Assembly (NCBI RefSeq): GCF_023913515.1
Contig: NZ_CP099391.1
Coordinates: 3,162,001-3,226,000 of the forward strand
Length of the DNA stretch: 64,000 nucleotides
DNA from: Natronococcus sp. CG52
GTDB taxonomy: Archaea; Halobacteriota; Halobacteria; Halobacteriales; Natrialbaceae
Direction: 5' to 3'
Under the pieces are notes generated by a model. The model was not told where the DNA came from. It was given only the letters and a program-made list of their open reading frames with translations, and ran no database searches. Every line of letters begins with the position of its first letter. Positions within the stretch are counted from its first letter, which is position 1. This document shows, piece by piece, positions 14,956 through 17,253 of the stretch. The position numbers and the translations under genes are program-made.

Positions 14956-15102
14956 ATGTCCGAAACACAGACTCGGCCAGGCGCTCGGTGCACAGAGTAC
15001 CTTAAAAATCACCCGCGAATGTTGGGAGTGCTGTTCACGATCTGCGTGCTCCTCACGCAGGCGGGGAACGCGGCGGCGGCGAACGGCGGTGCCGTCTTCT
15101 GA
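14956..15102 (+). CDS. Small secreted/membrane DUF7503-type protein
   Basis: 48 codons from ATG 14956 to TGA 15100-15102, easily missed by size filters. The protein begins MSETQTRPGARC, then has YLKNHPRMLGVLFTICVLL followed by TQAGNAAAANGGAVF. The KNHPRM-x-GxLFT core, hydrophobic stretch and TQAGNAAA end are what I recall of the haloarchaeal DUF7503 family. Almost the whole protein is a signal peptide or membrane helix (residues about 22-41); cleavage after the Ala-rich segment would release fewer than ten residues. A TATA-like box fits the start. It ends one base before the stop of the convergent CHAT protease gene, with no spacer. Confidence 0.75.
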   Translation: MSETQTRPGARCTEYLKNHPRMLGVLFTICVLLTQAGNAAAANGGAVF

Positions 15103-17253
15103 TCAAAGAGTCGCGGCGTCGATGCTGTGACTCCAACGTAATTCTTCGTCGATTCGAACGGGGACGTTTTCCAGCGCCAAGAACCGCCGGAGTTCGGCCC
15201 TCGAGAGGCGAAACGTCCCGAGCGCACCCCCGCACAGGAAGTACTCGCTATTCGACTCGATATACGGAATAAACATCGTTCCCATGCCCCGTCGCGTGGT
15301 CGGGTACGTCCTGATCTCGACCTTGAAGTCGTCGCCGACGGGTTCGATCTCGCACAGGTTCGGTACGGTGCTCTCGGCTTGCGCGATCGCGAATCCGCCG
15401 TCGCCGAGAACGATGTACTGCCCCCCGAGCAGGATAACGTCGCGAGCGATCTCGTGGGCTGCGTACAGCGGGAACCCGCGGTTGAGCAGGCGGGCGAGCG
15501 TCTGTCCCATCTCGATGGCCTCGCTGTTAACGAGGTTGCTCAGCGTGGCGATCCCGCCGATGCTGCCGCGCCGGATAAGATGGCGGCCCTGTTTGTACGA
15601 CCGGCAGGCGTTCAAGAAGAACGCGTCAGCCCCGACCTCCTCGAGGGTCGCGGCGTCGAGTTTTCCGTCTACGCACCGGAACCCCTCGTCGTCGATGTGA
15701 CCGATATAGTGGAGGAAATCGGTCGAGGAGCGAAGCACGGAGCGCAACTCGTCGACCGTCAGGTCGCGGTAGATGATGATGTCAAAAGGGAGGTCGGCGC
15801 GAGAACCGTACACTTCGTCGACGATATCTCGCTCGGCGTCCATACTGGTCTCGGTCTCGACGAGGGGGTTCGAGATGTCGATATCGTTACAGACGACGGT
15901 GATCTCGATATCGTCCTCGGTCGGACTGCGGCCGAGACGGTTCTGATACGCGTTGAGCAGCGCTTTGTTCGCCCCGAGCGGCGTACCGTCACCGATCCAC
16001 ACGTCTTCGAGCGAATCCGTTCGCTCCGGCTGAACGTACGCTTCGGCGGTCGACGCAGGACGCGTATTCTGCGTCCTGCTATCGTTCCGAAGGAACTCGT
16101 CGATGACCGCTTTCGGTTCGTCCGGGGGCGCTATTTCGCTTCCCCTGGACGAGCGTACGACGGCGAGACGGTGGGCGACGAACGGCAGTGCTTCGACGTT
16201 CTCGGGCTCCGGTTCGACGTGAGCGGTGAGTTTCCAGTCGGGGATCTGCGGTTCGAGTACCGAGAACGGGACGTCGAAGTAGGCCTCGATCCGCTCGGCG
16301 AGCGGGCGGTCGTACAGGGTAGCGAAATCGCAGTCGAGCCGCGATTCGATCATTCGACGCTCGTGTAAGTCCACCGGGTGCATCCCTTCCGTTCGGACTA
16401 CGCAATCGAGGAAGAACACCCGTTTCAACGCTCGTTCGACCGCCTCCTCGAAATCGTGACGCTCGCTGAGCGCGCGTTCGAAGCCGGTCTCGGTGACTAA
16501 TCGCGGCGCATCGGCCGGAACGAGGTCCGCTCCGAGATAGTATACGAGCGGTGCGACCGCGTAGATCAACCCGTACTCGGGCGGAACTTCGAGTCGAACG
16601 CCCGTATCGGGCGCGTCCATATCGGACGGGATCTGCAGCGCCTCTCCACGCCGGATCGTCGGCGGATGCCCGCGATACGAGGGATACGATCGTTCGGGAC
16701 GTCTCGTCTCGAGCGCCGACCCGAACGTCGACACGGCGGCCATCATATCCTGCGGTTTGTCCGTCGTCGTGATCGTCGCGGCCGGCTCTTTCCGATACGA
16801 ACGCGCTCCGACCAGCACCTCGGTCTCGCCGTCGAAGTCGACGTAGGTCTGCATCGAATCCGAAGAGACGGTGACGCTGCTGCAGGCCCGGAGATAGAGC
16901 TTGATCGGGGCGGCGAGTTCGAGGCTGTAGGTGTCAGCAGGAAGTTCTTCGGACGCGCACTGCTCTATTTTGGTCAGGAACGACCCGGACTCGTCACGAA
17001 CGTACACCGGAACGACGGTCGGCAGCGTGATCGCGGTCGTCGTCACCGCGACGGCTCCGTCGACTGGAAACGAAAATCGATCGACACCGAACGTTTCGGG
17101 CGATACGGGATCGGCCATCCAGAGCGTATACCGATTACGGTCGATTAGATCGATAACCTCGACGCCGTTGCCGTTTTGCACCGGTGAGAACGAGATAACG
17201 CTTCCCGCTTCATCCCGGTCTCGTTCGTCGTGCGATTCGTTCGGTGTACTCAT
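15103..17253 (-). CDS. CHAT-domain (caspase-like) cysteine protease
   Basis: 716 residues from ATG 17253. The C-terminal third is a CHAT peptidase: the catalytic His lies in LHYIGHIDDEGF (H519) and the catalytic Cys in FFLNACRSYKQG (C550), followed by GSIGGIATLSN, a family strand-loop. Residues 440-515 (ITVVCNDI, IIIYRDLTVDELRSVL) precede the His as in other CHAT/caspase folds. Residues 1-430 have no domain I recognise; they are rich in beta-strand-like segments and could be the target-recognition part. There is no signal peptide or transmembrane segment, so it is cytosolic. CHAT proteases act in regulated proteolysis and in some antiviral or cell-death systems. It is transcribed alone from a leaderless promoter and meets the DUF7503-type ORF tail to tail. 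Confidence 0.85.
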   Translation of the reverse strand: MSTPNESHDERDRDEAGSVISFSPVQNGNGVEVIDLIDRNRYTLWMADPVSPETFGVDRFSFPVDGAVAVTTTAITLPTVVPVYVRDESGSFLTKIEQCASEELPADTYSLELAAPIKLYLRACSSVTVSSDSMQTYVDFDGETEVLVGARSYRKEPAATITTTDKPQDMMAAVSTFGSALETRRPERSYPSYRGHPPTIRRGEALQIPSDMDAPDTGVRLEVPPEYGLIYAVAPLVYYLGADLVPADAPRLVTETGFERALSERHDFEEAVERALKRVFFLDCVVRTEGMHPVDLHERRMIESRLDCDFATLYDRPLAERIEAYFDVPFSVLEPQIPDWKLTAHVEPEPENVEALPFVAHRLAVVRSSRGSEIAPPDEPKAVIDEFLRNDSRTQNTRPASTAEAYVQPERTDSLEDVWIGDGTPLGANKALLNAYQNRLGRSPTEDDIEITVVCNDIDISNPLVETETSMDAERDIVDEVYGSRADLPFDIIIYRDLTVDELRSVLRSSTDFLHYIGHIDDEGFRCVDGKLDAATLEEVGADAFFLNACRSYKQGRHLIRRGSIGGIATLSNLVNSEAIEMGQTLARLLNRGFPLYAAHEIARDVILLGGQYIVLGDGGFAIAQAESTVPNLCEIEPVGDDFKVEIRTYPTTRRGMGTMFIPYIESNSEYFLCGGALGTFRLSRAELRRFLALENVPVRIDEELRWSHSIDAATL

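Follow-up and report, generated by a model that had tools for sequence, protein, structure and literature searches.

A cysteine protease gene and a micropeptide gene meeting at their stops

The window, the whole 64,000-nucleotide stretch of Natronococcus sp. CG52 analyzed here, carries a gene for a 716-residue protein and a 48-codon gene on opposite strands (Table 1). Both open reading frames lie tail to tail where the first-pass annotation had placed them, and their stop codons abut with no bases between (TGA at 15100–15102, TCA at 15103–15105). The micropeptide (MSETQTRPGARCTEYLKNHPRMLGVLFTICVLLTQAGNAAAANGGAVF) had also been called DUF7503-type, and it matches that family at 69.4 bits, where the curated cut-off is 27. 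DNA upstream of DUF7503 start codons is about 80% AT from −40 to −26 and about 50–59% AT from −25 on, a profile compatible with a putative TATA box and with transcripts that have little or no leader. The pair is flanked on the micropeptide side by moeA, bat-type regulators (one with MEDS) and a HAD hydrolase, and beyond the protease by genes for a pterin dehydratase, glutamyl-tRNA reductase and sirohaem synthesis.

Table 1. Features of the protease–micropeptide locus, in window coordinates.
Feature	Position	Strand	Basis or remark
Clan-CD/CHAT-type cysteine protease gene (fold predicted)	15103..17253	−	ORF, 716 aa; homologue in 54 of 61 related genomes; AF2 model
Catalytic histidine codon, H519	15697..15699	−	H in 145/145 homologues
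Catalytic cysteine codon, C550	15604..15606	−	GCA on the + strand, Cys on the − strand; C in 145/145 homologues
Predicted clan-CD catalytic region, residues ~339–661	15271..16239	−	VIA-align structure comparison
Predicted N-terminal β-sandwich domain, residues ~20–163, without a clear known relative	16765..17196	−	Separate AF2 model of this domain
Micropeptide gene (DUF7503), 48 aa, convergent to the protease gene	14956..15102	+	Pfam PF24335, E = 1.9e-19
Conserved HPR motif preceding the hydrophobic helix; putative cleavage site	15010..15018	+	Conservation in 110 DUF7503 partners
Hydrophobic helix; conserved residues specific to the family (consensus G-V-L-F-T...L-S-Q-A-G)	15019..15078	+	Column conservation, 110 DUF7503 partners
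C-terminal heptapeptide tail ANGGAVF	15079..15099	+	In relatives, 7 residues, or 6–7 residues plus Gly-Pro

The 716-residue protein has no match at E < 1 in Pfam, NCBIfam, PADLOC or the PDB sequences, no credible solved relative was found by sequence, and no signal peptide is evident at its N-terminus. Its relatives reach 14.9–18.5 bits against Pfam CHAT (PF12770; cut-off 24), and one reaches 18.3 bits against Peptidase C25 (cut-off 23; E = 0.0014), all below threshold. Judged by these scores, the window protease is a divergent branch outside Pfam CHAT; one plasmid-borne relative is annotated as CHAT domain-containing. The first-pass annotation had described an intact His-Cys dyad, and this is borne out, since every one of 145 aligned homologues has H519 and C550. 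H515, G518, C527 and N548 near the active site are likewise invariant. D457, where the first strand of the catalytic domain ends, is kept in 136 of the 145.

In the AF2 model (122 sequences; pLDDT 91.5, pTM 0.92), residues 339–661 match gingipain RgpB best (VIA-align Z = 20.7 over 246 residues), and the catalytic domain also resembles SAVED-CHAT (Z = 18.6 over 175 residues), separase (Z = 17.3), DdvA (Z = 16.2) and the TPR-CHAT protease of Craspase (Z = 12–14), giving a range of 12–21 against clan-CD enzymes. The relatives' sub-threshold CHAT and Peptidase_C25 matches (E = 0.0015–0.019) cover the same region as this fold. From these matches, the invariant dyad and the model together, we assign the 716-residue protein, with its fold predicted, to the clan-CD/CHAT-type proteases, which are defined by a His-Cys dyad placed at strand ends of the caspase–haemoglobinase fold. 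The N-terminal 430 residues, previously left undescribed, can now be divided in the model into a β-sandwich (~20–163), an α/β region and the start of the clan-CD fold at ~339, with no TPR helices of the kind that define the Craspase TPR-CHAT architecture. Folded alone, the β-sandwich reaches pLDDT 90.4. It found only middling structural matches, the best to the β-sandwich of β-galactosidase (Z = 8.9; Foldseek E at best 0.004), and no known fold was assigned to it.

Conservation of the pair across haloarchaea

The first-pass annotation had also proposed that the two genes are partners, an idea that would have fallen had they co-occurred nowhere else; the reverse was found. The protease was found in 54 and DUF7503 in 52 of 61 genomes, and 81 of 83 DUF7503 matches (82 pass the Pfam cut-off and one scores 26 bits) lie tail to tail with a protease homologue. 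Of the two remaining copies, one is cut off by a contig end 98 bases away, and the other keeps the tail-to-tail orientation but is separated from a protease gene by about 4.5 kb. The median stop-to-stop gap is about 6 bp. Gaps of −4 to +10 bp occur in 65 of 112 DUF7503 pairs, compared with 7 of 62 other convergent pairs at the same loci, whose genes were called by a simple acidic-ORF rule (Fisher p = 5e-10). The pairing is far above chance, and it spans genera including Haloferax, Halorussus, Halogranum, Haladaptatus, Natrinema, Halobellus and Salinarchaeum. Selection acts on the reading frame of DUF7503, with dN/dS of 0.21 in 24 disjoint pairs vs. 1.33 in the +1 frame.

The protease is usually present in several copies per haloarchaeal genome. 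Among 172 distinct proteases, 112 have a DUF7503 partner (81 of these ending in Gly-Pro, hereafter GP), 34 have another GP-ending partner, and 26 have none that we recognized. Several of these 26 are second copies of tandem pairs and mostly adjoin a partner-bearing copy. At five tandem pairs (L120, L122, L124, L126 and L127), DUF7503 sits beside one protease, and the second copies form a partnerless clade. A replicon of the window's own genome carries another protease–DUF7503 pair (L134) that is truncated or frameshifted and probably decaying.

Other neighbors recur at some loci. DUF7504 lies directly upstream of 41 of the 172 proteases on the same strand (e.g. L067:9231-9947 and L124:8491-9228), and in Haloferax and a few others DUF7503 is preceded by a HalX response regulator; many pairs, that of the window included, have neither gene beside them. 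DUF7504 was rejected as an obligate third component on this count and as a family of 4–11 copies in most genomes sampled. A 236-residue protein without a Pfam family lies 94–160 bp upstream of the protease at seven loci (L083:9191-9901, L065, L076, L082, L094, L096 and L097). Distant protease homologues from another family of the same phylum (L212–L215) have no GP partner and adjoin UPF0146/RimI-like genes, identified from their sequences; one of these loci has overlapping 3′ ends.

Partner types and their shared C-terminal tail

DUF7503 partners consist of a head, the motif Y-L-x-x-[HN]-P-R-M, a hydrophobic helix (conserved G, L-F-T, L-L-L and S-Q-A-G), a [VA]-A-A sequence and a tail. Within [HN]PR[ML], proline is present in 110 of 110 partners and the following residue is arginine in 102 and lysine in 6; the final position of [VA]-A-A is alanine in 101. 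Conservation in the helix goes further than hydrophobicity alone would require. The tail is uncharged and rich in β-branched and small residues. It extends 8–9 residues past [VA]-A-A in the GP type and mostly 7 in the non-GP type, in which the last two residues look to be missing (GNGGVIS vs. GNMGVISGP). The window micropeptide has the shorter, non-GP kind of tail, which is why the Gly-Pro end escaped the first-pass annotation.

A FastTree tree of the proteases implies seven or more switches of GP state within the DUF7503 pairs. All four glycine codons, all four proline codons and all three stops are used at Gly-Pro ends, and this free variation indicates that selection acts on the protein. 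It likewise rules out a signal in the DNA itself, for instance a terminator. Ribosome arrest at Gly-Pro-stop was also set aside, there being no downstream cistron to regulate in a convergent arrangement. Many protease columns differ between GP and non-GP pairs, among them 557, 578 and 581 after the catalytic cysteine, a difference that phylogeny alone could explain given about seven independent switches.

In 31 genomes, a second protease clade (~35% identity) is encoded divergently from a gene identified by sequence as glyA (L100–L119 and L180–L201). DUF7503 is absent from this core haloarchaeal clade. Most of its members instead meet, tail to tail, a small ORF of different and mostly non-hydrophobic sequence that ends in ...[KR][VI]STYGGP or ...[VI]STYSGP, with S-T-Y residues preceding the GP end. 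A few have other helix-bearing, GP-ending partners (L118 and L190), as do L062, L080 and L128. Since these second-type partners were chosen by their GP end, all of them end in GP by construction. Evidence independent of this choice comes from the S-T-Y residues and from GP enrichment next to the protease: of 189 convergent ORFs whose stop lies −20 to 60 bp from a protease stop, 89 end in GP, compared with 230 of 20482 ORFs overall. The pattern S-T-Y-x-G-P-stop occurs at 34 sites in the 61 genomes vs. 8 for a backward control; 33 of the 34 end a small ORF, and 27 of these lie beside a protease. As a further independent line, the second-type partners are under purifying selection (dN/dS = 0.34, from three pairs only).

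The first-pass annotation had emphasized the membrane helix. The window's DUF7503 does have one, but some partners are helix-free, and by sequence the element common to the partner types is the C-terminal tail. Six relatives of the soluble partners, ending in STYSGP or STYGGP, have no protease found nearby (L244, L250, L254, L255, L263 and L266). The surroundings of these six differ (wider views, L267–L272): one is close to the end of its contig, and two lie a few kb from an ORF that looks Orc1/Cdc6-like.

A candidate control module and its alternatives

Our preferred reading, which we hold tentatively, is that the two genes make up a dedicated control module: the protease would recognize the tail of its partner, and the partner would most likely be a dedicated substrate or regulator cut after arginine. 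A cytosolic clan-CD (CHAT-type) protease and its own micropeptide, encoded by convergent genes with nearly touching stops, would form one module. Recognition would be through the short uncharged C-terminal tail, typically ending in Gly-Pro, and the body of the partner would be exchangeable, being either a conserved membrane helix (DUF7503) or a small non-membrane body (the glyA-linked clade). The tail is the likely contact because it persists while partner bodies differ. Two of the nearest folds, gingipain R and separase, cleave after basic residues. Together with the retention of D457, this favors cleavage after the near-invariant arginine of [HN]PR, just before the helix, as the most likely cut in DUF7503 partners; soluble partners would be cut after the basic residues preceding the tail. 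Cleavage may then alter how the pair associates with the membrane or whether it is inhibited. The conserved pairing, the selection on the partner's reading frame, the invariant dyad and the persistence of the tail on unrelated bodies are shown, and the clan-CD fold is predicted. We infer the direct tail–protease contact, cleavage at arginine, a trigger and a downstream target, and the partner may serve as substrate, inhibitor or sensor.

The main difficulty for a cleavage module is topology, and it is the reason for our caution. The charge pattern of DUF7503 suggests an N-in/C-out orientation. The tail would then face the exterior, out of reach of a protease that has no signal peptide, unless contact precedes insertion. 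The 26 partnerless proteases and the six soluble-partner homologues found away from any protease also count against a module. A regulatory inhibitor is nearly as likely as a cleaved substrate. Here the partner would act at the membrane as a sensor or inhibitor, its tail occupying the protease until released by a membrane signal, with upstream DUF7504 and, at some loci, HalX feeding the signal. On balance we think this less likely than not. The conservation of the DUF7503 helix, the DUF7504 and HalX genes where they adjoin, and a tail composition like that of a strand in a cleft all argue for it, but many pairs, including that of the window, lack both neighbors, and the predicted topology is as awkward here as for cleavage.

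Quite improbable is a toxin–antitoxin-like arrangement in which the protease removes a membrane-toxic micropeptide. DUF7503 hardly ever occurs without the protease and the protease does occur without DUF7503, as expected of a toxin that depends on its antitoxin; however, the glyA-linked clade has helix-free partners, the module is near-universal and sits at a core locus in that clade, and a few soluble partners are orphans. We give similarly little credence to peptide signaling, by which DUF7503 would be a precursor that signal peptidase cuts at [VA]-A-A, freeing a 7–9-residue tail later sensed by the protease, as in Rap-Phr and AimR-AimP. The near-fixed tail length after a signal-peptidase-like site and the variation of the tail between paralogues fit this idea, but soluble partners have no signal peptide, the helix is conserved beyond what a signal peptide needs, and the pairs have no conserved permease or transporter neighbor. 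Finally, the antiviral suicide pair of the first-pass annotation is very unlikely. CHAT-family proteases act in bacterial gasdermin systems, and some protease copies here are plasmid-borne. A CHAT-family protease also acts in Craspase (PMC9729208). In contrast, PADLOC matched neither protein nor any of ten flanking genes in the window, which removes a defense-island setting; the neighbors are core-metabolism and regulator genes, one clade occupies the core glyA locus, and the protease is present in most sampled haloarchaea. A viral contig scan and a phage tblastn search found no protease in virus or phage records, and a viral origin was rejected. A cell death or defense role is not supported.

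Comparison with known systems helps to place the pair. Like Csx29/TPR-CHAT with Csx30 (Craspase), it joins a clan-CD CHAT protease of similar catalytic fold to a dedicated protein partner, but it has neither TPR nor CRISPR effector, an N-terminal β-sandwich instead, and a convergent micropeptide of 40–50 residues as partner. The type III CRISPR-linked SAVED-CHAT is alike in its catalytic domain; its N-terminal architecture differs, and no CRISPR genes occur among the recurrent haloarchaeal neighbors. Gingipains (family C25), the best match of the catalytic half, are alike in fold only: they are secreted and carry their own propeptide, whereas the haloarchaeal protease has a separate micropeptide and no evident signal peptide. 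Rap-Phr and AimR-AimP are peptide–receptor pairs with a TPR receptor. They share with our pair a receptor-sized gene beside a 40–50-codon gene encoding a signal-peptide-like helix and a short variable tail, but here a protease replaces the TPR receptor, the genes are convergent and some partners are helix-free. DUF7503 is far smaller than any gasdermin.

Our literature search found no paper on DUF7503, or on the CHAT domain together with haloarchaea or Haloferax, and the pair, which nearly every haloarchaeon sampled carries, appears undescribed in the literature searched. The pair gives a function-testable meaning to DUF7503, and to DUF7504 where adjacent, both families of unknown function, and it would supply a sequence-defined recognition tail. 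Haloferax volcanii has strong caspase-4-like activity, and in the available parts of that report archaeal genomes are said to have no clear caspase homologues and no gene is named for the activity (PMC3615174). The protease family offers a concrete candidate for the caspase-like activity measured in H. volcanii. It is unlikely, in our estimate, that the pair reflects a class-wide haloarchaeal signaling system in which a caspase-like protease reads a micropeptide tail (a heptapeptide with or without Gly-Pro, on a membrane-helix or soluble body) and which underlies part of the orphan Haloferax activity. Among our control rows, H. volcanii has both DUF7503 and DUF7504.
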